44,422 bases of DNA from Cyanobium sp. (GTDB taxonomy: Bacteria > Cyanobacteriota > Cyanobacteriia > PCC-6307 > Cyanobiaceae), in NCBI GenBank assembly GCA_007135755.1, contig SLIG01000018.1, positions 1 through 44,422 on the forward strand. The letters run 5' to 3'. Below, one piece after another: positions 3,420 through 29,323 of the stretch (the first letter of the stretch is position 1; each line of letters starts with the position of its first letter). A program made the translations under genes and the position numbers. The notes under the pieces were generated by a model, which saw only the letters and a program-made list of their open reading frames with translations, was not told where the DNA came from and searched no databases.

Positions 3420-3920
3420 TCAGGGCCGGTGGGTGGAGGCCTGGGCGCCGGCGGCAGGGCCGGCGGTGCGCGAGGGCAGGACGCGTTGGGCGACCAGGCG
3501 GGCTCCGTGCAGCACCAGGGCGGCGCCGACCAGCGGCAACCAGGTGCGAATCAGCTCCATCATCACAGTCGGCGCGACCGCCATCACGGCGGTCGCCAGC
3601 GGGCTGTGGGCCGGCCAGTCGGCGAGGGCCGGTAGGCCCAGGCTGTGGATGCCGCACACCGCCCCCACCAGGCCCGCCTGCAGGTGGCTGTCGTCGGGAT
3701 CCACCCGCTGCAGGTGGAAGGCCAGCAGGCCGTAGAGCAGGCCGCAGCCGCCGGCGCGCAGGGCGGCCTCCAGCCCCAGCGGCAGGCCGAGCAGCAGGGC
3801 GGCGACGCCGGCCCCCAGCGCCCAGGCGATCGAGCGCAGGCGCAGCTGCTGGCGGGATGGCGCGGTGGCGGCCTGGCTCACGGTGACGCCCGAGGGGGCA
3901 GGGCCTCTGGGGGCGATCAT
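3420..3920 (-). CDS. Conserved hypothetical membrane protein
   Basis: ORF 3420..3995; likely start MIAPRGPAPSG (3920) or MADRQG (3941); several hydrophobic segments; just upstream of and co-oriented with the SNF2 gene. Confidence 0.55.
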   Translation of the reverse strand: MIAPRGPAPSGVTVSQAATAPSRQQLRLRSIAWALGAGVAALLLGLPLGLEAALRAGGCGLLYGLLAFHLQRVDPDDSHLQAGLVGAVCGIHSLGLPALADWPAHSPLATAVMAVAPTVMMELIRTWLPLVGAALVLHGARLVAQRVLPSRTAGPAAGAQASTHRP

Positions 3921-3939
3921 GCTCCCCTGCCGGTCTGCC

Positions 3940-5013
3940 ATGCCGCCCCAGCGCACCCTCCACCTCCACGCCGGCCCCCACAAAACCGCCAGCACCTATC
4001 TGCAGGCCCGCCTGCAGGCCAACCGCCGGGCTCTGGAGCGGCTGGGTCTGCGCTACCCCACCCCCTGGCGCGAACACTCCCACCGCCATCTGGCCCGGGC
4101 CCTGCGGGCCGGCCGGCGGGAGGCGCTCGATCAGCTGCTGCGGCGCCAGGGGCGCTGGAGCGGCGACCTGCTGCTCAGCGCCGAGCACTTCGTGCCCCTG
4201 CTGGAGCGGCCCGAGGCCATCGCGCAGCTGCGCCAGGCCGCCGCCGCCCACGGCTACCGGTTGCACGTGATCAGCGTGGTGCGGCCCCAGGAGGAGCTGC
4301 TCAACTCCTTTTACGCCCACGCCCTGGGCCGGCTCTACGGCAGCCCGGGCTTCCGGGCCTACGTGCGCGCCCAGCTGGCGGGACGGCGGGTGAGCGGTGC
4401 CGGCCGGCGCCGCTGGATCCACATGGCCCCCCTGGCGCTGGATTTCGAGCGGCGCTTTGCTCCCCTGCTGGCCGCCGACGGTGTGCGGGGCTCGTTCCTG
4501 CCCTTCCGCCCGCGCCAGGGGGACCTGTTCGAGCAGCTGATGGCGACCCTGGAGCTGCCCGCGGGCCCCTGGCGGCCGGCGCCGCCGGACCAGGCCAATG
4601 AGCAGCTCGGCCGCCGCGGGCTGGGGGTGGCCCTTCTGCTCAATCAGCGCCTCGATGGCCTGCCCCTGCGCCGCAACCGCCTGATCGCTGAGCACGGTCT
4701 CAACCGGCTGGTGGAGCGGCTGCGGGCGCGGGCCCGGCAGCGCGGCTGGGTGCAGGAGCGCTTCAGCGGCTGGGAGGCCGGGCTGCTGGAGCGGGTGCGC
4801 CAGCGCTACGGCGCCGCCAATGGGCGCTTCGCCGCCCGGGTGTGGGGGCAGCCCTGGAACGCCTGCTTCGCCGCCCCCGGTCCGGCCGACGCAGAGGCCA
4901 GCCCAGGCGTCCCCGCCCCGGCGGGGCTGGTGCTGGATGGCGAGGTGGAGCGGGAGGCCGAGCAGCTGTTCAAGGGCTATCGGCGACGGTTGCTGGCGGC
5001 GTCATCCCAATAA
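3940..5013 (+). CDS. Sulfotransferase-like protein
   Basis: MPPQRTLHLHAGPHKTASTYLQARL: N-terminal HxGPHKTxSTYLQ resembles the PAPS 5'-phosphosulfate-binding loop of sulfotransferase-like proteins; start set at ATG 3940 inside ORF 3865..5013. Confidence 0.65.
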   Translation: MPPQRTLHLHAGPHKTASTYLQARLQANRRALERLGLRYPTPWREHSHRHLARALRAGRREALDQLLRRQGRWSGDLLLSAEHFVPLLERPEAIAQLRQAAAAHGYRLHVISVVRPQEELLNSFYAHALGRLYGSPGFRAYVRAQLAGRRVSGAGRRRWIHMAPLALDFERRFAPLLAADGVRGSFLPFRPRQGDLFEQLMATLELPAGPWRPAPPDQANEQLGRRGLGVALLLNQRLDGLPLRRNRLIAEHGLNRLVERLRARARQRGWVQERFSGWEAGLLERVRQRYGAANGRFAARVWGQPWNACFAAPGPADAEASPGVPAPAGLVLDGEVEREAEQLFKGYRRRLLAASSQ

Positions 5014-5037
5014 TCTGTAGGCCCTGCTGGGGTCCCG

Positions 5038-7764
5038 ATGCGGCTCTTCTCGCGGTGGCCGGAACAGCAGGCCCACCTGCTGCGCTGGGTGCTGCTGCTG
5101 GGCTGGCTGGCCCTGATCGCCTCGTTGCTGAGTCCGCAGCTGAGTCCGCAGCTGGGTCTGCTGCTGAGCGGCCGGGCCCTGCGTCCGCCGCTCTGCCCCG
5201 AGGGCTTGGACTGCCACGGTCACGGGGGCAACCAGCTGTTCTGGGGCACCGTGGTGCCCAGCGGACTCCTCATCCTGGCGGCAGGCAGCCATGAGTTGTG
5301 GCGCAGGATCTGTCCGCTGTCCTTCGCCTCCCAGCTGTTCCGGGCCCTCGATCGTCAGCGCCGGGTGCCGGGCAGGAACGGGCGGCCCCAGGTGGCCAAG
5401 GTGGAGGCCGACTCCTGGCTTGGCCGCCATCACCTGACCCTTCAGTGGAGCCTGCTGATCGCGGGACTGTGCCTGCGGTTGCTGGCGGTGAACAGCAGTC
5501 CGCTGGGGCTGGGGCTGCTGCTGCTGCTGACCGTGGTGGCCGCGATCACCGTTGGCTGGGCCTACGCCGGCAAGGCCTGGTGCCAGTACGTCTGCCCGAT
5601 GGGAGCGGTCCAGCAGGTGGTCACCGGTCCCCGCGGGCCGTTGGCTGCGGCCGCCCACCTCGATTCCAGCCGCATCACCCAGTCGATGTGCCGCACCGTG
5701 GCCGATGACGGCCATGAGCGCTCCGCCTGCGTGGCCTGCCAGTCCCCCTGCCTCGACATCGACTCCGAGCGCACCTACTGGATGGGCCTGGAAGGCAAGC
5801 GGGGGCTGCGCTGGGCCTGGCTGTCCTATCCGGGGCTGGTGCTGGCGTTTTTTCTGCTCACCCGCCAGCAGGGGCCGGACGCAATCGAGATGCTGCGCAG
5901 CGGGCTGTGGGCCTTCGATGCCGATCTGCCCGCCCGCGCGCTCGACTTCTGGCCCCGTGCCGATGCGACCTGGGGCGTGCCGCGGCTGCTGGCCATTCCG
6001 GCGCTGCTGAGCGCCGCCGGTGCCGCCAGCGTGGCGCTGTTCAGCGGCGTGGAGACGGCGCTCCAGGCCAGACTGGCGGTGGATCACAGCGAGGAGCGGG
6101 CCCGGGCCATGGCCCGCTCCCGCAGCCGGCTGCTGGCCACCTTCCTGGCGGTGAACCTGTTCTTCTGGTTTGCCGATCCCAGCCTGGGCATCGCGGCGGG
6201 CAAGGTTGGCCAGCTGATCCGATCCCTGGTGCTGATCGCCAGTGCCATCTGGCTCTACCGGGGCTGGCCCCGCGACGCGGAGGTCTACCGCCGTGAGAGC
6301 ACCAGTGCCAGCCTGCGCTCCCAGCTCAGGAAGCGCTTCCCTGAGCTGGAGTCGTATCTCGATGGCCGCACGCTCGAGGAGCTCACGCCCGGCGAGGTGT
6401 TCACCCTGGCCAAGGCCTTGCCGGCCCAGCTCGCTGCCACCGGCCAGGCGCTCTATCGCGATGTGCTGGCCGATCTGTTCCGCAGCGGCCGCCTGGAGCG
6501 GGCCACCAGTGCGCTGCAGCTTGAGGAGCTGCGTGTCTCCCTGGGCCTGGAGGAGGCCGACCACCACGCCGCCATCCGCGAACTCGCCCTCCAGGACCCT
6601 CAGCTGCTGGAGCTCGATGCCCGCCAGCGGGCCAGCCGCAACCTGCGGGAGGACGCCGCGGCCGAGGCGATCCACGACCTGCTCCACCTGGCCGGCCAGC
6701 ATGACCTGAGGCCTGGCGTGCTCGATGCCTCCCAGGCCCGGCGGCTGGAGATGATCCGCCAGGACTCGGGCCTGGAGGACGAGGCCTGGCAGGCCCTGCT
6801 GCTGCGCTTCGGCCCCCGCTCGGCCTTCGCACGCCAGCGGCTCGAGGCCGGTCTCGAGCACCTGCGCGCCGAGCTGGCCCGCCGGGCCGCGCTGGCGGCC
6901 GTGGCTGAAGACGACGGCTTGCTTCGGCCCCTGCTGCCGGTGATCGACCTGCGCATCGTCGGCCGTCTGCTGCCCCTGCTGCCGCTGCTGGCCGAGTTCT
7001 CGGCCGACGATCCCCTGCTGCAGCAGTTCGCCGCCCTGCAGGTTCAGTTGCCCCCTGGGGTGACCGGTGAGGTGTTGCGCCGCGACCTTGCCCTGCTCCC
7101 CCATCCCGAGCTCCAGACCCCCCTGCCCCTGGGCCCCCTGCCGGATGCCTGGAGTGTGTTGGAGGACCTCTGGAGCGACCCGGACCCCGAGAACGCCTTC
7201 TGGGTGCTCTGGCTCCTTGACCGGCGAGACCCGGCCCGCGCGGCCCGCCTGCGGCGCACGCCCCGCACCGACCTGCCCAGCTCGGCCCATCTCGACGCGC
7301 TCCTGGCCGGCCAGCCGCCGGCCGAAGCGGAGCTGCTGCCCCTGCTGGTGCAGGTGCCGCTGCTGGCCGAGTTGTCGCCGTCGGCCCTGTTCAACGTGGC
7401 GGCCTGGGGCCAGCTGCGCGCCTGGCCGGCCGGGGCCACGATCCTGCGGGCCGGCGACGAGGCCACCTGGATGGCGATCCTGCTGCAGGGCTGGGCCCTG
7501 GTCAGCGGCGACGACTGGCAGGCGAAGGTGTCGGCGGGGGAGACCCTGGGTGAGATGGCCCTGCTCAGCGGCCGCGCCCGGGGTTCGGCCGTCACCGCAG
7601 GGGGCCCCGTGCGGGCGCTGGTGTTCGAGGCCGCCGCTTTCGAGCAGCTGCTGCACCAGTCCTCGGGCTTCGCCCGCAGCCTGCTGCGCCAGCAGACCCG
7701 TCGCATCGAGGGGTTCCAGGGGGAGCCGCCCGCCGGGCCGGTGTCGAACCCGGCAGGCCGCTGA
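5038..7764 (+). CDS. Polytopic 4Fe-4S binding protein (NapH/NosR/CcoG-like) with C-terminal cyclic-nucleotide-binding domain
   Basis: 908 aa; TM segments, WCQYVCPMGAVQQ and CVACQSPCLDID cysteine clusters; C-terminus GDEATWMAILLQGWALVSG...AGETLGEMALLSGRARGSAV resembles a cNMP-binding phosphate cassette. Confidence 0.8.
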   Translation: MRLFSRWPEQQAHLLRWVLLLGWLALIASLLSPQLSPQLGLLLSGRALRPPLCPEGLDCHGHGGNQLFWGTVVPSGLLILAAGSHELWRRICPLSFASQLFRALDRQRRVPGRNGRPQVAKVEADSWLGRHHLTLQWSLLIAGLCLRLLAVNSSPLGLGLLLLLTVVAAITVGWAYAGKAWCQYVCPMGAVQQVVTGPRGPLAAAAHLDSSRITQSMCRTVADDGHERSACVACQSPCLDIDSERTYWMGLEGKRGLRWAWLSYPGLVLAFFLLTRQQGPDAIEMLRSGLWAFDADLPARALDFWPRADATWGVPRLLAIPALLSAAGAASVALFSGVETALQARLAVDHSEERARAMARSRSRLLATFLAVNLFFWFADPSLGIAAGKVGQLIRSLVLIASAIWLYRGWPRDAEVYRRESTSASLRSQLRKRFPELESYLDGRTLEELTPGEVFTLAKALPAQLAATGQALYRDVLADLFRSGRLERATSALQLEELRVSLGLEEADHHAAIRELALQDPQLLELDARQRASRNLREDAAAEAIHDLLHLAGQHDLRPGVLDASQARRLEMIRQDSGLEDEAWQALLLRFGPRSAFARQRLEAGLEHLRAELARRAALAAVAEDDGLLRPLLPVIDLRIVGRLLPLLPLLAEFSADDPLLQQFAALQVQLPPGVTGEVLRRDLALLPHPELQTPLPLGPLPDAWSVLEDLWSDPDPENAFWVLWLLDRRDPARAARLRRTPRTDLPSSAHLDALLAGQPPAEAELLPLLVQVPLLAELSPSALFNVAAWGQLRAWPAGATILRAGDEATWMAILLQGWALVSGDDWQAKVSAGETLGEMALLSGRARGSAVTAGGPVRALVFEAAAFEQLLHQSSGFARSLLRQQTRRIEGFQGEPPAGPVSNPAGR

Positions 7765-7800
7765 GCGAACATGCCCCTCCAGGGCTTGAACATCCGCGCC

Positions 7801-10536
7801 ATGGCCGCCGCCACCCCCCGCACCGGTCGCTCCCAGGCCGCCCGCCCCCGCAGCGGCGCCGAGATCCGCGCGGCGTTTCTGGAGTTCTACGAACAGCGGG
7901 GGCACAAGCGCATGGCCAGCGCCTCCCTGGTGCCGGACGACCCCACGGTGCTGCTCACCATTGCCGGCATGCTGCCGTTCAAGCCGGTGTTTCTGGGGCA
8001 GCAGCAGCGGCCGGCGCCCCGGGCCACCAGCAGCCAGAAGTGCATCCGCACCAACGACATCGAGAACGTGGGCCGCACGGCGCGGCACCACACCTTCTTC
8101 GAGATGCTCGGCAATTTTTCGTTTGGCGATTACTTCAAGGAGCAGGCGATCCAGTGGGCCTGGGAACTGTCCACCGAGGTGTTCGGGCTTTCATCGAAGA
8201 ACCTCGTGGTGAGCGTGTTCCGCGACGACGACGAGGCCGAAGCGATCTGGCGCGAGCTGGTGGGCGTGAATCCCAAGCGGATCATCCGCATGGATGAGGC
8301 CGACAACTTCTGGGCCTCGGGCCCCACCGGCCCCTGCGGCCCCTGCTCGGAGATCTATTACGACTTCAGGCCCGAACTGGGCGACGACGGCATCGACCTG
8401 GAGGACGACAGCCGCTTCATCGAGTTCTACAACCTGGTGTTCATGCAGTACAACCGCGACGCCCAGGGCACCCTCACGCCGCTGGCCAACCGCAACATCG
8501 ACACCGGCATGGGCCTCGAGCGCATGGCCCAGATCCTGCAGGGCGTGCCGAACAACTACGAAACGGATCTGATTTATCCGTTGATTGAAACGGCGGCGGC
8601 TCTGGCTGGGGTGGACTACCGCGCCCTCGATGCGAAGGGCCAGACGAGCCTGAAGGTGATCGGCGACCACGCCCGCGCCATCACCCAGCTGATCGGCGAC
8701 GGCGTCACCGCCAGCAATCTCGGCCGCGGCTACATCCTGCGCCGGCTGCTGCGCCGGGTGGTGCGCCACGGCCGTCTGCTGGGCATCGACAAGCCCTTCC
8801 TGAGCGCGATGGGCGAGGCCTCGATCGCGTTGATGCAGGAGGCCTATCCGCAGCTGGTGGAGCGCCGGGAGCTGATCCTGGCCGAGCTGGCGCGCGAAGA
8901 GACCCGCTTCCTGGAAACCCTTGAGCGCGGCGAGACGCTGCTGGCCAACATCTTGGCGAACAAGCCCCGGCTGATCAGCGGCGCGCAGGCCTTCGAGCTC
9001 TACGACACCTATGGCTTCCCCCTGGAGCTCACCGAGGAGATCGCCGAGGAGCATGGGCTCACGGTGGACACCGCCGGCTTCGAGGCGGCGATGGAAGAGC
9101 AGCGCCAGCGGGCCAAGGCCGCGGCGGTGAGCATCGACCTCACCCTTCAGGAGGCGATCGATCAGGTGGCCGCCACGGCCGAGGCCACGGCCTTCAAGGG
9201 CTACGAGGCCCTGGAGCACCCCAGCTGCGTGCTGGCGTTGGTGGTGAACGGTGAGCCGGCCACCCAGGCCAGCGCCGGCGACAGCGTGCAGCTGGTGCTC
9301 GATTCCACCCCCTTCTACGGCGAGGGCGGCGGCCAGGTGGGCGACCGGGGTGTGCTGCTGGGGGGCGGCGACCAGACCAGCGTGGATGCGGGGGTGATCG
9401 TGAGCATCGAGGGGGTGTCGCGGAACCGCTCGGTGTTCGTGCACAGCGGCCAGATCGAGCGCGGCAGCGTGACGGTGGGCGACCTGCTCACCGCCCGGGT
9501 CGATGCCAGCTGCCGCCGCCGTGCCCAGGCCAATCACACGGCCACCCACCTGCTGCAGGCGGCGCTCAAGCAGGTGGTGGATCCGGGCATCGGCCAGGCC
9601 GGCTCGCTGGTGGACTTCGACCGCCTGCGCTTCGACTTCCACTGCTCCCGCGCCGTGACCCCCGCCGAGCTCGAGCAGATCGAGGCCCTGATCAACGGCT
9701 GGATCAGCGAGGCCCACGGCCTGGTGGTGCAGGAGATGGCGATCGAGGCCGCCAAGGCTGCCGGCGCCCTGGCGATGTTCGGCGAGAAGTACGCCGACGT
9801 GGTGCGGGTGGTGGACGTTCCCGGCGTGTCGATGGAGCTCTGCGGCGGCACCCACGTGGCCAACACCGCCGAGATCGGCGTGTTCAAGATCGTGAGCGAG
9901 AGCGGCGTGGCCGCCGGCATCCGCCGCATCGAGGCGGTGGCCGGCCCGGCGGTGCTGGCCTACCTCAAGGAGCGCGAGGCGGTGGTGAAGCCCCTGGCCG
10001 AGCGCTTCAAGGCCCAGCCCGGCGAGATCGTGGAGCGGGTGGCCCAGCTGGCCGATGAGCTCAAGGCCACCCAGAAGGCCCTGGCGGCCGCCCGCAGCGA
10101 GCTGGCGGCGGCCAAGGCCTCAGCGCTGGCGGCCCAGGCGGAAGCGGTGGGGGCTGCTGCCGATGGGGCGCCCTTCCAGCTGCTGGTGGCCCGCCTCGAT
10201 GGCGTGGATGGGGCCGGCCTGCAGGGGGCGGCCCAGGGCCTGGCCGACCAGCTCGGCGAGGGGGCGGCGGTGGTGCTGGGCGGGCTGCCCGATCCGGTCG
10301 ACCTGGGCAAGGTGATTCTGGTGGCGGCCTTTGGCAAGGCGGTGATCGCCGCTGGGCCCAAGGCCGGTGCCTTCATCGGCGGCGTGGCCAAGGCCTGCGG
10401 CGGCGGCGGCGGCGGCCGCCCCAACCTGGCCCAGGCCGGCGGCCGCGATGGCGGCGCCCTGGATGGGGCGCTGGAGCAGGCGCGCGAGCAGTTGCACACC
10501 GCCCTCTCTGGGGCTCCGGGCGCCGGTCAGGGGTAG
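7801..10536 (+). CDS. alaS: Alanyl-tRNA synthetase
   Basis: ORF 7771..10536; [86 protein letters not shown]. Start 7771 or 7801 unresolved. Confidence 0.97.
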
Positions 10537-10633: not shown

Positions 10634-12550
10634 GTGATCCATGTCAGGCCTCTTCGCTGGCTTCGCCGCCACCTGGTGTTCGTGGTCTGGGCCTCCGCCT
10701 GCACGGTGGGGTTTGCCGTGTTCGCCAACACCTACGACCAGTGGCAGCTGATGGTGGCCACCCGCACCCAGGAGCTGCGGGGACCCAGACAGCCGCCGGA
10801 TGGGGTGGTGATCGTCGCCATCGACGACCACAGCCTCGTGCAGGGGGCGAATGCCGATCTCAGTGCGGATCCCGAGCTGAGTCGGCTGGTGAGCTGGCCC
10901 TGGCCGCGCGCCATCTACGACCGCGTGCTGGAGCGCCTGTTCGCCGCCGGAGCGCTGGCGGTGGGCTTCGACCTTCTCTTCGATGGCCCCAGCAGCCACG
11001 GCCCCAACGACGACGACCGTTTCGCCCGGGCCCTGAGCCGTCATCAGGGCAAGGTGGTGCTTGGGGCCCAGGTGTTCGAATCCCGGGGACGGGTGGGGGG
11101 ACTGACCCTCAGCAGCCCGATCGACCAGCTCAGTGCCGCGGCCGGTGACGCCAGTTCCGGTCTGCTCAATGGCCTTCAGGACCCCGACGGTTACATCCGC
11201 CTCCGGCCCACCACCTATGCCGAACAGCTGCGCCAGAGCGGGGCGCTGGATGTGCCTCCCGGGCTGGCGGATCGGCTGATCGGCAAGGGCGCTCTCGAAG
11301 AACTGCCCCCACCCCGTCTGGTGGCCTCCTGGCGCCCCCTGGTCGACCTCTATGGACCCGCCCGCACCATCCCCACCATCTCCATCTGGGAGGTGCTGGA
11401 GACGGCCAGCTTCGAACGCCTGCTGGAGCGGGGTGATCTCAACGGCCAGGTGGTGCTGATCGGCCCCACCGCCAGTGTGTTGCAGGACATCCACCGCACG
11501 GCCTTCGCCGGGGCGGAGGGGATGCCGGGAGTGGAGATTCACGCGGCCGAGATCGCCAACCGACTCGAGGGCCGGGCCCTGTTCGTGCCCTTCACCTCAC
11601 CGCTGTGGGCTCCGCTGCTCGGCCTGGGGGTGCTGTTGCTGGGCCTGCTCTCCACGCGCTGGGAGCAACCCCAGGTGCGACTGGGCACCCTGGCGCTGAT
11701 CGCCGGTGTGTTGTTTCTGGTGGCCCTGATTCTGATCAGTTCCAAGGGAATGGGCATCGTGCTGGTGGGTCTGTCGGGGTTCACCCTCGCCACCGGCCTG
11801 GTGAGCGCGGGGGAGGCCACCGTGCGCCTGCAGCTCAACCGGCTGCGCCTGCGGCGCATGCTCGAGCGCTATCTGTCTCCGGCGGTGGCGGCCCAGATCG
11901 CCAGTCAGCCCGAGGAAGCCGATGAGCTTCTGGGCGGGCGGGTGTCCGAGGTGGTGGTGTTTCTGTGCGACGTGCGTGGCTTCACCCAGCGCACCACTCG
12001 CATGAGTCAGGAGGGGCGGGCCAGCGAATTGGTGGCTCAGCTGAACGAGTATTTCGCCGTGCTGGTGGGTGTGCTCCAGCGCCATGGCGCCACGATCGAC
12101 AAGTACATGGGCGATGCGGTGCTGGCGGTGTTCGGGGTTCCCCTCAGCCGGGGTCTGGAGAATGAAGTGCAGGCGGCTCTCGAGGCCATCACCGAGATTC
12201 AGGGCGCCTTCGCTGAGCTCAATCAACGCTGGATCTCCGAGGGCCGGGAACCCTGGGAGCATGTGTTGGTGCTCTCCGGTGGGCCTGTGATCAGCGGCAA
12301 CATCGGTTGCGCCAGTCGCATGGATTACACGATGATCGGCGACACCGTGAACATGGCCAGCCGTCTTGAGTCAGTCGCCAAGCAGGCGGACAGCGGCGTG
12401 GTGGTGAACCAGGTGGTGGCCGCTCAGGCCCGGGAGGAGTGGAACATTAAGCCCCTCGGCGACTACGAGATCCGTGGTCAGGGCAGCCAGGAACTATTCA
12501 CCCTGATCGGACGTGCTGCCCTCGATGCCGGCGCCGAACATGGCCCCTAG
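10634..12550 (+). CDS. CHASE2-domain class III adenylate/guanylate cyclase (copy 1)
   Basis: 638 aa; N-terminal TM + CHASE2-like region (VVIVAIDDHSLVQ...WPWPRAIYDRVLERLFAAGALAVGFDLLFDGPS), TM block, then VVVFLCDVRGFTQRTT...GATIDKYMGDAVLAVFG...MDYTMIGDTVNMASRLE. Confidence 0.92.
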   Translation: MIHVRPLRWLRRHLVFVVWASACTVGFAVFANTYDQWQLMVATRTQELRGPRQPPDGVVIVAIDDHSLVQGANADLSADPELSRLVSWPWPRAIYDRVLERLFAAGALAVGFDLLFDGPSSHGPNDDDRFARALSRHQGKVVLGAQVFESRGRVGGLTLSSPIDQLSAAAGDASSGLLNGLQDPDGYIRLRPTTYAEQLRQSGALDVPPGLADRLIGKGALEELPPPRLVASWRPLVDLYGPARTIPTISIWEVLETASFERLLERGDLNGQVVLIGPTASVLQDIHRTAFAGAEGMPGVEIHAAEIANRLEGRALFVPFTSPLWAPLLGLGVLLLGLLSTRWEQPQVRLGTLALIAGVLFLVALILISSKGMGIVLVGLSGFTLATGLVSAGEATVRLQLNRLRLRRMLERYLSPAVAAQIASQPEEADELLGGRVSEVVVFLCDVRGFTQRTTRMSQEGRASELVAQLNEYFAVLVGVLQRHGATIDKYMGDAVLAVFGVPLSRGLENEVQAALEAITEIQGAFAELNQRWISEGREPWEHVLVLSGGPVISGNIGCASRMDYTMIGDTVNMASRLESVAKQADSGVVVNQVVAAQAREEWNIKPLGDYEIRGQGSQELFTLIGRAALDAGAEHGP

Positions 12551-13456: not shown

Positions 13457-14935
13457 TCACCAGATCCGGGTGCTGAAGATCTGCTTCATGCGTTTCAGCA
13501 GTTGATTCTCCTGGGCGGTCTCAGCGTCGGTGTTGAGATCCTCCAGCTGGTCACGCCGGGCGGTGACCAGGTGCGCCAGTTCCTCCATCAGGGAGGGATT
13601 GCGCTGAATGAGGGGAGCGATGTGCTGCTGCGCCACCTCCAGCAGTACGCATTCGTTGATGGCCATGACGCTGGCGCTGCGCGGGCTGTCGGTGAGCAGT
13701 GACATCTCCCCGAAGATGTCGCCGGGGTGCAGTTGTGCCACCGCCAAGTCGCCATGGCCCGTTTGCTGCTTGCGCACCTCCACCTGTCCGATCACCAGCT
13801 GGTAGAGGGAATCGCCGGGATCGCCTTCCCGAACCACCGCTTCACCTGGGGAGAAGCGCAGGCAACGGGCCTGCCGCGCCAGGCTGGCGAGTTCCCCGTC
13901 GTTGAGATGGCCGAACAGGGGATTCTGAGCCAGAAGACTGATGCGTTCGTCGTCGGCCAGGCGTTCGGGATGGTTGCCATCGACGGGTGGGCGCTTGGGC
14001 CGCAGTTCCCGCACCGGGTAGGGCACGCTCTGACCAGCGCGCTCCAGGGCGTACCAGATCTGGCCGAGCAGCTCGCTGCGCAGGTTGAGCTGATCCGTGG
14101 AGTTGCCGGGTGGCTGGAACACCAGGATCTCGTAGTTGATCGCGCTTTCGCCGAAACTGTCCACCCGCACCGCAGGAGCGGGCCTGGGCAACACCCCTGG
14201 GTGTCGGTTCAGCACATCGAGCAGCAGCGAGCGTGCCTGGGCCGGCGGCAGCGCGTAGTCCAGGCCAAGGCTGAAGCGGTTGCCCATGCTGCCGAAGCGG
14301 CAGAAGTTCTTCACCACAGTCTCGGTGACCATGGTGTTGGGGATCACCACCAGCGAGCCGCTGCTGTCTCTCAGGCAGGTGTCGTGCCAGTCCACCGACA
14401 CGACCACGCCTTCATGCTCATCGCCTACCCGGATGAAGTCACCCACCTTGAACACGTCGTCGAACTGCAGTTCCACCCCAGCGAAGAGATCCTTGAGCGG
14501 TTCCTGCGCTGCCAGACCCAGCACGGCCGTGAGCACTGCCGATGTGGTCACCAGACCCACCACATCGAAGCGGGCCAGCTCCCAGAGCACGACCACCGTG
14601 GCCAGGGATGATCCGGCCAGCATCAACAGTTGAACCAGGATCTTGGGCTGCGGCTTCCGCCAACCCAGGGCCGGTGGCAGTTCCAGGGTGAGCCAGAGAA
14701 ACAGCCGGATGCCGAGGTAGCTGAACAGCAGCTTGTCGGCGATCAGGATCCAGGGCCGATAGGGATCGGAAGGCAATCCCTCCGGCAGGGATGCCACCAC
14801 GGCCCAGGCCAGCAGTGCCCAGGCCACGAGTCGCACGGGCAGGTCCGGGAGTCTCAGCCGGCGGGTCAGGCGCCGCAGGGGCAGCAGCAGGCTGAGGGCA
14901 ACGGTGGCGGTGAGCCACACCTGCGGCAGGAACAT
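13457..14935 (-). CDS. MscS-family mechanosensitive channel with C-terminal cyclic-nucleotide-binding domain
   Basis: 492 aa; TM helices, VLGLAAQEPLKDLFAGVELQFDDVFKVGDFIRVGDEHEGVVVSVDWHDTCLRD...VVIPNTMV (MscS), then PGEAVVREGDPGDSLYQLVIGQVEV...HPGDIFGEMSLLTDSPRSASV (cNMP). Confidence 0.93.
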   Translation of the reverse strand: MFLPQVWLTATVALSLLLPLRRLTRRLRLPDLPVRLVAWALLAWAVVASLPEGLPSDPYRPWILIADKLLFSYLGIRLFLWLTLELPPALGWRKPQPKILVQLLMLAGSSLATVVVLWELARFDVVGLVTTSAVLTAVLGLAAQEPLKDLFAGVELQFDDVFKVGDFIRVGDEHEGVVVSVDWHDTCLRDSSGSLVVIPNTMVTETVVKNFCRFGSMGNRFSLGLDYALPPAQARSLLLDVLNRHPGVLPRPAPAVRVDSFGESAINYEILVFQPPGNSTDQLNLRSELLGQIWYALERAGQSVPYPVRELRPKRPPVDGNHPERLADDERISLLAQNPLFGHLNDGELASLARQARCLRFSPGEAVVREGDPGDSLYQLVIGQVEVRKQQTGHGDLAVAQLHPGDIFGEMSLLTDSPRSASVMAINECVLLEVAQQHIAPLIQRNPSLMEELAHLVTARRDQLEDLNTDAETAQENQLLKRMKQIFSTRIW

Positions 14936-22084: not shown

Positions 22085-23976
22085 ATGCGACCGCGCAACC
22101 AGGCGCCCATGGCCGCCATGACGGCGCTGCTCACCCTGGCGGCGGGGCTGCTGAGCGCATTCCCGCCGCAGGCGGTGCGCACCCTCGAGCGCGGGCTGGA
22201 GGCCCGGCTCCTGCGGTTGCGGGGGGCCAGGTCCGTTCCGGATTCGGTGGTGCTGGTGACCATCGACGACGCCACCCTGCAGCAGGGAGCCTGGTTCAGC
22301 GATGAGGGCAGCGCCGGTGAGCCGGTGCCGCCCTGGGCGGAGGGAATCCACACCCTGCCCTGGCCCCGGGCCCGCTACGGCGATCTGCTCGACCGGCTCA
22401 GGGAGGCCGAACCCGCCGCCGTGGGCATCAACCTTGTGTTCCAGGGGGCCAGCACCGGGGGGCGGCCGACGACGCCGCCCTGGCTGGAGCTCTGGAGCGG
22501 TCGCGGGGTCGGGTGGTCCTGGCCGCCGAGGTGCTCGACATCAGCGAGAGCGGCTTCGCCGGCCTGAGCCTGGTGCAGCCTCCGGAGATGCTGCTGGCTG
22601 CGGCCGGGCCGGCCAGCATCGGACTCTCCAACATCCTGCCGGAGCTGTCGGGCGAGGTCTCCCCTCGCCATCCCGAGGCCTTCAGCCGCTCCCTGGCGAC
22701 CGTGAACCCCCCCATGGCGTTGCCGTCCCTGCCCCGGGTGCTGCTGGAGCGGGCCGGGCGCCCCAGCCGCCAAGCCGATGCCGAGCGCAGCCTCAATGTG
22801 TATGGAGCCGAGGGCCGCTTTCCGCGGCTGGCGGCGTGGGAGGTGCTCGACCCCCAGCGCTGGAGCCACCACCCCCAGCGCAGCAGCATCCGCGGGGCGC
22901 TGGTGCTGGTGGGCCCGGTGGCGGCCCAGGGCGGCACCGGCACACCCACCCCCTTCGGCAACCTCTCGGGGCTGGAGGTGCTGGCCACGGCCACGGCCAA
23001 CTCGTTGCAGGGTGACGGCCTGCGCACCTGGCCTGCCGGGCCTGGGCCGCGGGGCCTGCTGGCGGCGGCGGCCGTGCTGGCGGCGGCCCTGCTGACCTTC
23101 GCGCGGGCCAGCCTGCGCTGGCGGCTCGGGGTCACCCTGGTGGCCCTGGGCCTGCTGTTCGGCGCCGCTCTCCTGCTGCTGTTCTCGCTGCATACCTGGC
23201 TTCCCCTGCTGGTGCCGGCCACGGGGCTGGTGACGCTGGGGCTGGTGCATGGAGGAGCGGCCTACCTCAACGAGGAGCGCGAGCGCCGCCGCCTGCGCCG
23301 CACCTTTGAGCGCTACGTGGCCCCCAGCGTGGTGGCCGAGATCCTCGCCGACCCGGCGGCGGCCGAGGGGATGCTGCGCGGGCGGCTGCTGCCGGTGACG
23401 ATCCTGTTCTCCGATCTCAAGGGTTTCACCCAGCTCACCAACCGGCGCAGCCGCAGCGGTGAGATCGAGCTGCACGTGCGTCAGCTCAACCAGTACCTGG
23501 CTGCCATGGTGGAGGTGATCACGGCCCACGGCGGCACGATCGACAAGTTCATCGGCGATGCGGTGATGGCGGTGTTCGGATCGCCCCTGAGCCGGGGGGT
23601 GGCCGCTGAGGCCGAGGCGGCGGTGCGCTGTGCTCTGGCCATGCGGCAGACCCTGCAGCGTCTCAATCGCCAGTGGGCCGAGGAGGGCAGCTGCGGCCTT
23701 GACAGCGGCATCGGCCTGGCCTCCGGGGAGGTGCTGGTGGGGCAGATCGGCAGCCCCCGCAGGATGGAGTTCACGGTGATCGGCGACAAGGTGAACCTGG
23801 CCAGCCGCATGGAGGGGCTCACCCGCCAGCTGGCCAGCCCGCTGCTGTTCGATGCCGCCACGGCTGACCTGGTGGGCGCCGGCCTGCCGGTGCGCAGCCT
23901 GGGGCGGAGCGCCATCAAGGGGATGGATCCCCAGCCCGTGTACACCTGCGACCTGGAGCGCACTGCCGCTCCATAG
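22085..23976 (+). pseudogene. CHASE2-domain class III adenylate/guanylate cyclase (copy 2), interrupted by an apparent frameshift near 22456-22462
   Basis: CHASE2 N-terminus in ORF 22085..22567 (VVLVTIDDATLQQG...AVGINLVFQGAS). Remaining CHASE2 + TM + cyclase in ORF 22513..23976 (VVLAAEVLDISESG...FSDLKGFTQLT...GTIDKFIGDAVMAVFG...MEFTVIGDKVNLASRME). Frame 1 upstream of the GTG at 22513 reads ADDAALAGALERSRGR, so the two parts join with one extra G. Confidence 0.85.
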
Positions 23977-24003
23977 GATCGCCTCACCGACCGCGCGACA
24001 GGG

Positions 24004-25488
24004 ATGGCAGGGCAGGCAGCTGGGCAAGCCGACTGGGAGGCCGTGATCGGCCTGGAGACCCACGTGCAGCTGGGCACCGCCAGCAAGATCTTCACCGGCG
24101 CCTCCACCACCTTCGGCGACGACCCCAACACCCACATCGATCCGGTGGTGTGCGGGCTGCCGGGCACCCTGCCGGTGCTGAATCAGAAGGTGCTCGAGTA
24201 TGCGGTGAAGGCGGCGATGGCGCTCAATCTGAAGATCGCCGAGCACAGCAAGTTCGACCGCAAGCAATATTTCTATCCCGATCTGCCCAAGAACTACCAG
24301 ATCTCCCAGTACGACGAACCGATCGCCGAAGACGGCTGGATCGAGGTGGAGGTGGCGGAAAAGGGCAAGGACACCTATCTGAAAACGATCGGCATCGAGC
24401 GCCTGCACATGGAGGAGGATGCCGGCAAGCTCGTGCACGCCGGCAGTGATCGCCTGGCCGGCTCCACCCACTCGCTGGTGGACTACAACCGGGCTGGTGT
24501 GGCCCTGGCGGAGATCGTCAGCAAGCCGGATCTGCGCACCGGCCGAGAAGCCGCTGAATACGCCGCTGAGATCCGCCGGATCATGCGCTATCTGGGCGTG
24601 AGCGACGGCAACATGCAGGAGGGTTCCCTGCGCTGCGATGTGAACATCTCGGTGCGGCGCGGGCCCGAGGCCCCCTTCGGCACGAAGGTGGAAATCAAGA
24701 ACATGAACTCGTTCTCCGCCATTCAGAAGGCGATCGATCACGAGATCCAGCGTCAGATCAAGGCCTACGAAACCGGTGAGCCGGTGGTGCAGGAAACGCG
24801 CCTCTGGGATGAGGGCAAGCAGCTCACCAGGAGCATGCGCTCCAAGGAAGGTGCCAGCGACTACCGCTACTTCCCCGATCCCGATCTCGGCCCGATCGAG
24901 GTGGGCGCCGAGCTGCGCGAGGGCTGGCGGGCCGAGTTGCCGGAGCTTCCGGCCGCCAAGCGCCACCGCTATGCCGAGCAGCTTGGCCTTTCCCAGTACG
25001 ACGCCCGCGTGCTCACCGACGAACGGCCGATGGCCGACTACTTCGAGGCCGTGGTGGCCGCCGGTGCCGATGCCAAGGCGGCGGCCAACTGGATCAGCGG
25101 CGACATCGCCGCCCATGTGAACGCCAACCGGCTTTCCTATGCCGAGCTGCCCTTCCGGCCCGAGCAGCTGGCGGAGATGGTGGGGATGATCGAGGGCGGG
25201 GTGATCAGCGGCAAGATCGCCAAGGAGATTCTGCCCGAACTGCTGGAGCTGGGCGGCTCCCCGAAGGCGATCGTGGACGAACGCGGGCTGGGCATGATCA
25301 GCGACCCCGCGGCGATCACGGCGATTGTGGCGGAGCTGCTGGCCGCCCATCCCGAGGAGGTGGAGGCCTTCCGCGGCGGCAAGACCAAGCTGCAGGGCTT
25401 CTTCGTGGGTCAGCTGATGAAGCGCACGGGCGGCAAGGCCGATCCCAAACTCGCCAACCAGATCCTCAACCAGCAGCTCAAGGGTTGA
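24004..25488 (+). CDS. gatB: Asp-tRNA(Asn)/Glu-tRNA(Gln) amidotransferase subunit B
   Basis: WEAVIGLETHVQLGTASKIF, CGLPGTLPVLN, FDRKQYFYPDLPKNYQISQYD, MQEGSLRCDVNIS, MRSKEGASDYRYFPDPDL. Confidence 0.98.
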   Translation: MAGQAAGQADWEAVIGLETHVQLGTASKIFTGASTTFGDDPNTHIDPVVCGLPGTLPVLNQKVLEYAVKAAMALNLKIAEHSKFDRKQYFYPDLPKNYQISQYDEPIAEDGWIEVEVAEKGKDTYLKTIGIERLHMEEDAGKLVHAGSDRLAGSTHSLVDYNRAGVALAEIVSKPDLRTGREAAEYAAEIRRIMRYLGVSDGNMQEGSLRCDVNISVRRGPEAPFGTKVEIKNMNSFSAIQKAIDHEIQRQIKAYETGEPVVQETRLWDEGKQLTRSMRSKEGASDYRYFPDPDLGPIEVGAELREGWRAELPELPAAKRHRYAEQLGLSQYDARVLTDERPMADYFEAVVAAGADAKAAANWISGDIAAHVNANRLSYAELPFRPEQLAEMVGMIEGGVISGKIAKEILPELLELGGSPKAIVDERGLGMISDPAAITAIVAELLAAHPEEVEAFRGGKTKLQGFFVGQLMKRTGGKADPKLANQILNQQLKG

Positions 25489-25536
25489 GTTCTGAGCTGG
25501 ATTCAGCCGGGCTGGATTCAGGCTGCCGCGTTCGTC

Positions 25537-25896
25537 ATGGCCGTGGTGCTGGGCCAGGGCTGGTGGCTCCACGGCGGTGATCCGGCCTGGGGGCGACTGG
25601 CCCAGTTCCCCCTCTTGGAGGCCATCGCCCCCGCCAACGCGGGTCCGGTGCTGCAGTGGCTGTCCACCGCCTGGCTGTGGAGCCAGTGGCTGGTGCACGA
25701 CCTGGTCACCATTTTTGTGCTGCTGCCCCGCCAGCTCCACGCCTGGCAGCTGGGACTCTCGGCCGCCGTGATCGGCGGCGGCCTGTGCGCCCTGGTGGCC
25801 TGGGGCTGGGGGCCGATCCAGCGGATGGTGCAGGACAAGGTGAACACCAGGAGCCTGGCGGTGGCGCTGCTGATCCAGCCCCTCAAGGCGCTTTAG
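25537..25896 (+). CDS. Small hypothetical membrane protein
   Basis: 119 aa ORF with several hydrophobic segments (LQWLSTAWLWSQWLVHDLVTIFVLLPRQLH); same frame as gatB, with no stop between the gatB TGA and this ATG. Slight resemblance to PiT-like transporter segments, not certain. Confidence 0.45.
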   Translation: MAVVLGQGWWLHGGDPAWGRLAQFPLLEAIAPANAGPVLQWLSTAWLWSQWLVHDLVTIFVLLPRQLHAWQLGLSAAVIGGGLCALVAWGWGPIQRMVQDKVNTRSLAVALLIQPLKAL

Positions 25897-27436
25897 CCCG
25901 ACCCGATGAATCCCGCCCCAGTCTCCGGTCCCTCAGCGCCCGCTCCACCTCCACCGCCAGCCGATCCGGCCCGCCCCGGTTGTCGATCACCCGATCGGCC
26001 AGGGGGCGTTTGCGGGCCAGGGGCCACTGGGCGGCCATGCGGGCGCGGGCCTCGCTGTCGCTGAGACCATCGCGGGCCACCAGCCGTTGCAGCTGCTGGG
26101 CTTCATCGCAGTCCACCAGCCAAACCTCGCTGCACAGCGATTCCAGCTCGGCCTCGAACAGCAGCGGGATCATCAGCACCACCGCCGGCGCCGCGGCCAG
26201 CCGCTGCAGCTCCGCGGCAAACCGCTCCCGCACCATCGGATGCACCAACCGCTCCAGCCACTGGCGCTCAACGGCATCGGCGAACACAATCCGTCCCAGG
26301 GCCGCGCGATCAAGGACAGGCGGCGCCACGTCGGCACCATCGCCCGGGCCCGGGGTCGCCAGCACCGGCTCCCCGTAGCGCGCCAGCACCGCCCGCGCCC
26401 CGGCGCTGCCGGGGGCCAGCGCCTCGCGGGCATAGGCATCGGCATCGAGCAGGGGTAGACCCCGGGCCGCCAGCAGCGCCCCCACGCTGCTCTTGCCGCT
26501 GGCGATGCCACCGGTGAGGCCGATGCGGCGCTGGCGGCCCGTCCAGCGCGGGCGGTTGAGGCGCTCCAGCATGGCGGGCGGCCCCAGCTGCTCGAGCCTG
26601 AAGCTGCTGCCGTAGCTGGGGGTGGGACGCTCCGAGTAGAAGCGGCTTCCCTGCGGAGGCCTCAGCCGCTGCCAGCGGTTCAGCAGCCGGCTGCGCAGCC
26701 GCAGGCCAGACCGCACCAGGTGGCGCAGCGCTGCGGGGGGCACGGGCCAGCCCAGGGGCTGGGCCAGCTCAGGCTCCACCACCGCCTCAAGCAAGCCCCG
26801 CACGGCGGGCCGCAGCGGCTCCGGCCAGTCCGACAGCAGCATCGCCAGCGTGGCGTCAGCCACGCGCCGGTTGCTGGCGGCCGGCCGGAAGAGCTCCCGC
26901 TCCACCCGCGCGTTGAGGGCCAGCAGGGCCTGCAGGGTGGTGGGAATGGCCGTGATCCCCATGCGCCCGCCCACATGGCGCCAGAAGCGGAACAGCGCCT
27001 GCTGCTCGTGTGGCTGCAGAGGGCGCCAGCCATAGCGCTCCAGCCAGCGGATCGGCTCGGCCACGAAGGTGCTGAGCACGTAGAGGAAGTCGTCGTTGGC
27101 GATGGCGTAGGCGACGTGGATCCGGTTCATGCGGCTGATCACCGCCGCACCGGCTGGGCTGTCAGGGCCGTGGCGCAGCAGTTCGGCCACCATCAGGCCG
27201 GTGTCGTCGTAGCGCTTGCGCGGCCGCTGTCCGAATTCGCCCGTGCGGCTGAGCAGCCCGGAGATCGAGGGCAGGCAGAAGGTCTTGAGCAGGGCCAGCT
27301 CCAGGGAGCGGGTGATGTCCCAGGGGAACAGCACGCCGGCCAGCCGCCGGCAGAGCGCCACCGCCTCGGCATCGAGCTCGTCATCGAGCCCTCCCTCCAG
27401 ATCGGCCCCCTGCCCGAGAGCGGCACGAGCATCCAT
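25883..27436 (-). CDS. coaE: Fused ORF: MpaB-like DUF2236 oxygenase domain + dephospho-CoA kinase (CoaE domain 25883..26572 if started at internal ATG)
   Basis: From ATG 27436 the frame is continuous: MDARAALGQGADLEGG...PWDITRSLELALLKTFCLPSISGLLSRTGEFGQRPRKRYDDTGLM... (DUF2236-like) into ...MLERLNRPRWTGRQRRIGLTGGIASGKSSVGALLAARGLPLLDADAYAREAL (CoaE P-loop). Confidence 0.85.
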   Translation of the reverse strand: MDARAALGQGADLEGGLDDELDAEAVALCRRLAGVLFPWDITRSLELALLKTFCLPSISGLLSRTGEFGQRPRKRYDDTGLMVAELLRHGPDSPAGAAVISRMNRIHVAYAIANDDFLYVLSTFVAEPIRWLERYGWRPLQPHEQQALFRFWRHVGGRMGITAIPTTLQALLALNARVERELFRPAASNRRVADATLAMLLSDWPEPLRPAVRGLLEAVVEPELAQPLGWPVPPAALRHLVRSGLRLRSRLLNRWQRLRPPQGSRFYSERPTPSYGSSFRLEQLGPPAMLERLNRPRWTGRQRRIGLTGGIASGKSSVGALLAARGLPLLDADAYAREALAPGSAGARAVLARYGEPVLATPGPGDGADVAPPVLDRAALGRIVFADAVERQWLERLVHPMVRERFAAELQRLAAAPAVVLMIPLLFEAELESLCSEVWLVDCDEAQQLQRLVARDGLSDSEARARMAAQWPLARKRPLADRVIDNRGGPDRLAVEVERALRDRRLGRDSSGRAKAP

Positions 27437-27532
27437 CGGTCGGTCCACTGCCCCTGTCGCTGCAGGCTCAGTCTGCGCAGCGGCGGCCCAGGCAGGTTTG
27501 GGATTCAGGATGGCCCCAGTGGCGGCCCTGCA

Positions 27533-28777
27533 TTGACCCACCCCTGGCACCCGATCCCCGGTGGCATCACCGCCCCGGCCGGCTTCCGGGCCGCGGCCGT
27601 CACCGCCGGCCTCAAGCCCTCCGGCAATCCCGATCTGGCCCTGCTGCTGGCCCCCGAGGGCGCCGTATGCGCCGGCACCTTCACCACGTCGCTGGTGCGG
27701 GCCGCCTGCGTGGATCTCTGCGCCGAGCGCCTGGCGGCCAGCGGCGGCCAGGCCCGGGCGGTGCTGATCAATTCGGGCCAGGCCAATGCCTGCACCGGCG
27801 AGCGGGGCCTGGCCGACAGCCTGCGCGCCACCGACGCCACCGCCGCGCGCCTGGGCCTGCGCCCCGAGGAGGTGCTGATCTGCTCCACCGGTGTGATCGG
27901 CGTGCCGATTCCCATGGACCGCCTGGAGGCGGGCCTCGATCCCCTGGTGGCGGCCCTCAGCCCCCACGCGGGCCCGGCGGCGGCCCGGGCGATCCTCACC
28001 ACCGACCTGGTGGAGAAGCAGATCGCCCTGGAGGCCACCCTCGGCGGCCGCGTGGTGCGCATCGGCGGCATGGCCAAGGGGTCGGGGATGATCCACCCCG
28101 CCATGGCCACCATGCTCGGCTACCTGAGCTGCGATGCCGGCGTGCCGGCCGAATGCTGGCGGGCCATGGTGCGGCGGGCGGTGGAGCGCTCCTTCAACGC
28201 GATCACGGTGGACGGCGACACCAGCACCAACGACACGTTGCTGGCCTTCGCCGCCGGCGAGCCCCTGCCTCCGGAGCACCTCGAGGCGTTGGAAACCGGC
28301 CTGACGGAGGCGCTGCAGCACCTGGCGCGCGCCATCGCCCGCGACGGTGAGGGTGCCACCTGCCTGATCGAGGTGCGGGTGGAGGGTGCGGCCGATGGGG
28401 CCGGCGCCCGCGCCATCGCCCGCACCGTGTGCGGTTCGTCGCTGGTGAAGTGCGCCGTGCACGGCCGTGACCCCAACTGGGGCCGGATCGTGGCCGCCGC
28501 CGGCCGGGCGGGTGTTGGTTTTGAGGCCACGGCCGTGGCCCTGTGGCTGGGAGACCACCAGCTGATGGCGGCCGGCGAGCCCCTGGCCTTCGATCGGCCG
28601 GCCGCCTCCGCCTACCTGCGCGAGCGCGCCGCCGGCACCTACCTGGGCGGCAGCGGCCCGGGCGGCGACACCGTGCTGATCCGCCTGCGGGTGGGCGACG
28701 GTCCCGGCCGGGGCGTGGCCTGGGGCTGCGACCTCTCCGATCAGTACGTGCGCATCAACGCCGACTACACCACCTAA
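27533..28777 (+). CDS. argJ: Bifunctional glutamate N-acetyltransferase/amino-acid N-acetyltransferase
   Basis: ITAPAGFRAAAVTAGLKPSGNPDLALLLAPEGAVCAGTFTTSLVRAACV, INSGQANACTG, GGMAKGSGMIHPAMATMLGYLSCDA, TVDGDTSTNDT; start uncertain (TTG 27533 fits THPWHPIPGG). Confidence 0.95.
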   Translation: MTHPWHPIPGGITAPAGFRAAAVTAGLKPSGNPDLALLLAPEGAVCAGTFTTSLVRAACVDLCAERLAASGGQARAVLINSGQANACTGERGLADSLRATDATAARLGLRPEEVLICSTGVIGVPIPMDRLEAGLDPLVAALSPHAGPAAARAILTTDLVEKQIALEATLGGRVVRIGGMAKGSGMIHPAMATMLGYLSCDAGVPAECWRAMVRRAVERSFNAITVDGDTSTNDTLLAFAAGEPLPPEHLEALETGLTEALQHLARAIARDGEGATCLIEVRVEGAADGAGARAIARTVCGSSLVKCAVHGRDPNWGRIVAAAGRAGVGFEATAVALWLGDHQLMAAGEPLAFDRPAASAYLRERAAGTYLGGSGPGGDTVLIRLRVGDGPGRGVAWGCDLSDQYVRINADYTT

Positions 28778-28786
28778 TCTCCCCCG

Positions 28787-29281
28787 ATGGTGAATCCAGC
28801 CCCGGTTCGCTCGTCTCGGCACCTGGTGTCCCAACCCTGGGCCATTCCCCTGCTGGCGGGGCTGTGTTTCGGGCTCGGCTATGGCGTGGTGCAGCGCCTG
28901 ATGCTGCTCGAGTTGCCCCGTCAGGGACAACTGGTGGAACCCTTCCGGATGAAGGAGTTTCCTGGCACCACCCTGGAGAGCCTGCGGCTGAAGGCGGGCG
29001 AGGAACCCCGCTCGATCCGCGGTGATCTCAGTGCCCTGGAGCAGGAGGAGCAGCAGCGCAAGGCCGAGACCGAGCGGCGCCAGCGGGAGCAGGAGCTGGA
29101 GGCCGAGCGGCAGCGCGAGCGCCTGGCGCCACCCCTCAGCCGCGAGCTGGAGCCTGCCCCCGCCGCCACCCCACCGCCGGCCCCAGCTCCACCGCCCGCC
29201 CCAGCTCCACCGCCCGCCGCCGACCCCCTGCCGCGCCTGGATCCGTCCATCACGCCACCGTTCGAGCCGCTCACTCCCTGA
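28787..29281 (+). CDS. Hypothetical single-pass membrane protein with charged coiled and Pro/Ala-rich tail
   Basis: 164 aa; TM PWAIPLLAGLCFGLGYGVVQRLM followed by EQEEQQRKAETERRQREQELEAERQRE and APAPPPAPAPPPAA. Confidence 0.6.
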   Translation: MVNPAPVRSSRHLVSQPWAIPLLAGLCFGLGYGVVQRLMLLELPRQGQLVEPFRMKEFPGTTLESLRLKAGEEPRSIRGDLSALEQEEQQRKAETERRQREQELEAERQRERLAPPLSRELEPAPAATPPPAPAPPPAPAPPPAADPLPRLDPSITPPFEPLTP

Positions 29282-29323
29282 AGCTTCCATCTGCCACAGT
29301 TCCCCCAGCTGCGGCCGGCCGCC

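Follow-up and report, generated by a model that had tools for sequence, protein, structure and literature searches.

A cyanobacterial family of NapH-related membrane iron-sulfur proteins with variable sensor tails, and a candidate link to bicarbonate uptake

Does the open reading frame at positions 5038-7764 (+) of a Cyanobium contig encode a genuine fusion between a membrane redox module and a cyclic-nucleotide-binding domain (CNBD), and if so, what might such a protein do? The window analysed here, i.e., the whole 44,422-nucleotide stretch of DNA, had first been given a preliminary description that read this gene as a polytopic bis-4Fe-4S membrane protein gated by cAMP or cGMP and knew of no characterised function for the architecture. 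Our full-text search of open-licence papers bore out the last point, retrieving no characterised function and no paper that describes the architecture or tests any member of the family. The fusion is genuine and belongs to a sizeable undescribed cyanobacterial family; the observation was thus confirmed, while the interpretation attached to it was supported in part.

The ORF is complete, begins with ATG, and yields a 908 aa product. A domain search and a structure prediction had been proposed as checks on the fusion, and both agreed with it. Per Pfam, Fer4_5 (PF12801) covers residues 162-197 with 29.9 bits, above its gathering cut-off of 22, and cNMP_binding (PF00027) covers residues 794-874 with 46.3 bits against a cut-off of 27.5 (E 4e-12). 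A C-terminus without any cNMP-binding domain, which had been named as grounds for abandoning the reading, was thus not what we found. The AlphaFold2 model of the 908 aa protein, generated with 60 homologues as input, has a pLDDT of 86 and a pTM of 0.63, and places strands and helices in the order of a CNBD at residues 792-895. This is not a chance ORF: homologues with 82-84% identity are present in three genomes of the same genus, and full-length homologues of ~930-1100 aa are spread over Cyanobacteriia. An antisense ORF of 1029 aa (5002-8091, -) spans the entire gene; it is a by-product of the ~73% GC content, and the protein on the + strand is the conserved one. Other long shadow ORFs of this high-GC window lie at 22375-25740 (-) and 25883-29290 (-).

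The membrane core comprises residues 1-409 (5038-6264; this and the following features of the protein are all on the + strand), with eight predicted transmembrane (TM) helices and both termini predicted inside. Its cytoplasmic loops are positively charged; taken from the loop charges and the AlphaFold2 helices, the predicted topology has eight TM helices with a region of seven cysteines inside and the pair C53/C59 outside. Modelled separately, residues 1-440 gave a pLDDT of 87 and a pTM of 0.88, with the Fe-S loops under pLDDT 50. A structure search with the core alone retrieved no confident PDB match. The full-length Foldseek search proposed SLC9C1, which we rejected as a homologue, as the two share only the layout of TM region, linker, and CNBD, at an rmsd near 35 A.

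The seven cytoplasmic cysteines are invariant in 60/60 aligned homologues. They comprise C92 in a C92-P93 motif (RRICP, 5311-5316), C182 and C186 in the C182-X3-C186-P motif of the Fer4_5 domain (5521-5628), and a four-cysteine set, C218, C231, C234, and C238, spaced C-x12-C-x2-C-x3-C (5689-5751). The motifs CQYVCPMG (C182, C186) and CVACQSPC (C231, C234, C238), from which two 4Fe-4S clusters had been proposed, are present, but these seven positions do not establish two clusters. One full four-cysteine site is well supported by the alignment, C218/C231/C234/C238 being the best candidate 4Fe-4S site; a second cluster would need the three-cysteine set C92/C182/C186 plus a non-cysteine ligand. 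On the predicted external side, the C53/C59 pair in the interval between TM1 and TM2 (5194-5214) was found in every aligned homologue that retains the segment, with the first cysteine shifted in three.

To which known proteins is this core related? When it was compared with eight NapH/YccM proteins using hhalign, a match with probability 91.6 (E 8e-7, 162 columns) was obtained, which lays C92-P and C182-X3-C186-P onto the two CX3CP motifs of NapH. The two groups share a TM core, two CP-containing cytoplasmic motifs between helices, and a cytoplasmic cysteine cluster that follows. Both CX3CP motifs are complete in NapH, which also has two ferredoxin motifs, whereas the cyanobacterial family has one complete CX3CP (the second), a single-cysteine remnant at the first (W-R-R-I-C-P), and one four-cysteine set; by sequence, the core is thus not a NapH but a reduced form remotely related to it. 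In addition, the cyanobacterial core has four more TM helices than NapH, the external cysteine pair, a long helical arm, and a sensor tail. Membership in NapH itself (TIGR02163) was rejected on these motif differences and on a score of 14.4 bits against a cut-off of 213.05; in NCBIfam, the NapH and CcoG matches of the window protein are sub-threshold only. The CX3CP motifs of NapH are needed for function, and RdhC/PceC and NosR likewise have a membrane module with CX3CP motifs proposed as electron carriers (PMC5928378), although RdhC/PceC and NosR are described with two intact CX3CP motifs and the window protein has one complete. The FMN-binding domain that is a trait of NosR and RdhC had no Pfam match in the window protein at E up to 1.

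CcoG/RdxA/FixG proteins are also membrane Fe-S proteins of the Fer4_5 type, and they bear on a different reading of the core. Copper(II) is reduced by CcoG/FixG, and electrons are passed along thiol relays of the DsbD type; by analogy, the core could be a metal or thiol reductase, with C53/C59 or a metal ion receiving the electrons, instead of a conduit linked to quinone. The external cysteine pair, conserved in nearly all members and lacking in NapH at the corresponding place in the alignment made here, is in line with this reading, as are the reductase genes that adjoin the family gene in one subgroup. Against this, the CcoG model (TIGR02745) scores the window protein at 9.7 bits, below its cut-off of 316.7, and the genes that recur next to family members are those for an NAD(P)H reductase and for bicarbonate transporters, not for metal uptake. 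We consider a metal or thiol reductase an unlikely identity for the core. The proposal that the gene encodes a membrane redox core of some kind is supported by the remote NapH profile match, the invariant cysteines, and the NAD(P)H:2Fe-2S reductase gene that follows relatives.

The core is followed by a cytoplasmic helical middle without a Pfam family (residues 410-780, 6265-7377), whose first ~100 residues are strongly conserved, and then by the CNBD (residues 794-874, 7417-7659). In a phmmer search against the PDB, residues 769-882 aligned with the CNBD of MloK1, with E839 and R848 falling on the cassette Glu and Arg; Foldseek also matched the domain to MloK1 (1vp6; TM 0.79 of target, 2.3 A). 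The C-terminal GETLGEMALLSGRARGSAV that had been singled out beforehand is present, and its Arg848 is the residue that phmmer places on the MloK1 cassette Arg. The phosphate-binding cassette spans residues 838-850 (7549-7587) with G838, E839, and R848, and a Gly follows Arg848 where Ser or Ala is usual. The MloK1 CNBD and that of the MscS channel encoded nearby share the fold and the cassette Glu and Arg with the window protein, in which the CNBD is joined to a redox core and not to a channel as in MloK1 and MscS. Judged from these residues, the cAMP pocket of the window CNBD is apparently intact.

Across the family, the core is the constant part and the tail is the variable part. Tails occur as a canonical CNBD (in the clade of the window protein), as a CNBD without the Arg (in most members), as FHA plus CNBD, or not at all. 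In the window clade, 19 tails have the Arg, seven have another residue, and four are without a CNBD, i.e., the Arg is kept in 19/26 members with a scored CNBD state; the close relatives at 82-84% identity keep both Glu and Arg. In the larger clade, the Arg is mostly replaced, the preceding Gly is often Asp, and a strongly conserved alternative cassette, 'LDELEVLxHS', is found. One subgroup (Nostoc, Kastovskya) has an FHA domain ahead of a CNBD that contains the Arg; in the forms of 1095-1102 aa at L092 and L101, the inserted FHA domain comes directly after the helical middle. Many members of ~440-630 aa are without a CNBD, some of these short ones being cut off by contig ends.

This pattern raises the possibility that the CNBD is structural or dimerising in all members, including the window protein, and that the core carries out its redox function constitutively, with no nucleotide sensed. 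The loss of the cassette Arg in most homologues and the replacement or loss of the whole CNBD in several clades are as such a role would have it, and the strong conservation of 'LDELEVLxHS' in the cmp-linked members is what a contact with a protein or with a different ligand would lead one to expect. On the other hand, the window clade mostly keeps Glu and Arg, even in the 82-84% relatives, and the retention of both is not expected of a pocket under no selection. We thus hold a purely structural CNBD throughout the family to be doubtful. Homologues with a degenerate pocket, which had been listed beforehand as counting against gating, do make up most of the family, but they are not found among the close relatives of the window protein. 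Gating by cAMP or cGMP accordingly stands as plausible for the window protein, with Glu and Arg kept in its close relatives and CHASE2 cyclases nearby, and falls as a family-wide claim, given the missing Arg in most CNBD members and the absence of a CNBD in others. From the tail sequences, cAMP sensing is probable for the clade of the window protein only and is not a family trait.

The cyclases are part of the gene neighbourhood in the window. Downstream, alaS (7771-10536, +; named from sequence) begins 6 bp 3' of the gene by its longest reading, although its true start may be later, and 98 bp past alaS lies a gene for a CHASE2 and class III cyclase protein (10634-12550, +), whose catalytic motif DKYMGD...MDYTMIGD...NMASR reads as that of an adenylyl cyclase. 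A FecR-like ORF (named from sequence) overlaps after the cyclase on the same strand. These are followed by a convergent gene for an MscS channel whose CNBD is canonical (13460-14935, -) and by a second CHASE2-type class III cyclase (22513-23976, +). Two of the three PF00211 cyclase matches of the window genome fall within this 44-kb window; of eleven CNBD matches in the genome, ten exceed the cut-off. Genomic islands of marine Synechococcus and Cyanobium have been described in which adenylate cyclases lie near cNMP-binding proteins, e.g., CRP or cAMP-regulated MscS (PMC7522525). The alaS, CHASE2, and MscS-CNBD genes also lie in the vicinity of further clade members, in differing order, and this neighbourhood may be a matter of regional synteny and not of function. 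In both clades, genes for MscS-type channels are repeatedly found close to members (L126:12884-14692 and L167:11549-13237, besides 13460-14935 in the window). On the 5' side, 24 bp from the gene, a 382-aa ORF (3865-5013, +) has no Pfam family above cut-off, and its start reads like a sulfotransferase.

The core was detected in 82/195 sampled Cyanobacteriia genomes with completeness of at least 95% (roughly 40%) and in 22/146 genomes of the phylum sample. A relative is encoded in 334 candidate stretches from named genomes; among 60 relatives, 35 matched at E up to 1e-3, some of them through the CNBD only. The core tree, built by a quick method with SH-aLRT support only, places picocyanobacterial proteins, the window protein among them, in one clade and those of filamentous and other lineages in a second, larger one. 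Several picocyanobacterial genomes have one copy of each clade, e.g., Synechococcus sp. CCY 0621 (L083, L096) and GreenBA-s (L069, L141).

Among relatives, three genomic contexts recur: cmpABCD, sbtA, and a reductase with FHA, FAD, NAD, and 2Fe-2S domains; most family members outside the loci listed below have none of these next door. Genes of the sister group adjoin cmpABCD (BCT1) in several lineages and orientations. The family gene lies 3' of cmpD on the same strand at loci L119, L136, L113, L162, L163, and L164, and at L055 with one gene between; it is divergent from cmpA in Pseudanabaena and others, and 5' of cmpA at L048. Adjacency to cmpABCD or CmpA was also found in Chamaesiphon, Leptolyngbyaceae, G042, and G052. 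In the phylum sample, cmpABCD is directly upstream in 3/20 fetched loci from three families (P ~1e-6 to 1e-5, assuming an adjacency chance of 0.001-0.002). In the class sample, the family gene is divergent from and adjacent to cmpA in 8/62 genomes with both genes, of which seven belong to one genus and are thus not independent. CmpA itself co-occurs with the core in 62/82 genomes, compared with 50/113 genomes without the core (Fisher p 2e-5, phylogeny ignored).

NCBIfam names the adjacent ABC operon as a nitrate transporter (ntrB/ntrCD), an identity that we rejected by comparison with the solved CmpA and NrtA structures: CmpA (2i48) outscores NrtA (2g29) by ~130-310 bits in 7/7 sister-group loci tested. 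The operons named for nitrate that compare as BCT1 are those of L119, L115, L136, L055, L048, L163, and L164. The cmp operon of Pseudanabaena mucicola has a porin gene within it. The second transporter gene, sbtA (PF05982), adjoins the members at L111 and L137 and lies eight genes from the member at L141. The sbtA frame at L137 (1270-2178) overlaps the family gene by 4 bp and matches Sbt_1 positions 1-190/308, and it is possibly truncated. The repeated cmpABCD linkage in the sister group points to inorganic-carbon uptake. No CmpA was found in the window genome at the threshold used, and BCT1 is therefore probably not the partner of the window protein; this genome does have an ntrB-type permease and, elsewhere in the genome, one SbtA.

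In the third context, the family gene of one subgroup is directly followed by a gene for a reductase with FHA, FAD_binding_6, NAD_binding_1, and Fer2 domains (e.g., L139:12969-14657), which lies on the same strand at a spacing of 20-145 bp in about a dozen loci from several lineages. This arrangement suggests real electron delivery to the core, and it argues, together with the homology to electron-transfer proteins, against a view of the core as a redox sensor only, in which the oxidation state of the cluster would set the conformation of a membrane signalling scaffold for transporters or channels with no redox flow. The free swapping of sensor-type tails (CNBD, FHA plus CNBD, none) and the recurrence of transporters and MscS channels as neighbours would suit such a scaffold, which nevertheless seems improbable to us.

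We thus favour, at a probability of about 45%, the reading that the window protein transfers electrons at the membrane under the control of a sensor domain, and that the same core in the sister group works with bicarbonate uptake; both functions are inferred from sequence and gene context. Reduced ferredoxin would be the electron donor to the core on its cytoplasmic side, or, in relatives, the donor would be the FHA-FAD-NAD(P)H-2Fe-2S reductase encoded directly downstream. The electrons would then travel via the Fe-S site and the cysteines of the CX3CP motifs to the quinone pool or to the external cysteine pair, with the C-terminal domain setting the activity of the core. In the window protein, cAMP from the co-directional CHASE2 adenylyl cyclase would most likely bind the CNBD and switch the core. 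In the sister group, the core with its altered CNBD would serve BCT1 or SbtA, either reporting redox state to the transporter or delivering it. A more far-reaching proposal, which we regard as a long shot, is that the family is a plasma-membrane device conveying photosynthetic redox state and cAMP or another signal to BCT1 and SbtA, such that uptake is on in the light and off in the dark, and that the window protein is the version retaining a cAMP-sensing tail.

Cyanobacterial bicarbonate transporters are switched within seconds by a redox or light signal; a review called this signal and its sensor unknown, and considered thioredoxin-type control at the plasma membrane unlikely (PMC8438413). 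Cyanobacteria use cAMP to signal carbon status; SyCRP1 responds to it, and SbtB, which contains a redox loop, binds it as well as adenyl nucleotides (PMC13249358). These two regulators resemble the proposed role of the family in that they would couple those same bicarbonate transporters to cAMP or to the redox state (PMC13249358), but SbtB is a soluble PII-like protein and SyCRP1 a CRP-type regulator, both without a membrane Fe-S core. A membrane Fe-S family with swappable sensor tails beside cmpABCD is a concrete and testable candidate for a redox or cAMP input to bicarbonate transporters, and it widens the NapH-like fold to a form under signal control. The carbon-uptake link of the relatives, which was out of view of the preliminary description, is the most useful new lead; if it fails, there is still an uncharacterised redox family of wide occurrence in Cyanobacteriia.

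A few further observations concern the surroundings of individual members. In G002 (L171), an nrtABCD-like operon (by sequence) lies four to five genes 5' of a close relative and is adjoined by two long flavodiiron-like ORFs, also named from sequence; as the operon is non-adjacent, it was left out of the evidence. A gene for a ParA/NUBPL-like P-loop NTPase (L165:11346-12116) lies two genes 5' of the family gene, and L166 has an ORF of equal length (257 aa) at the corresponding place. Neighbours that recur at few loci are DAGK, PsiE, DUF6671, ParA-like, and speA (the last named from sequence).
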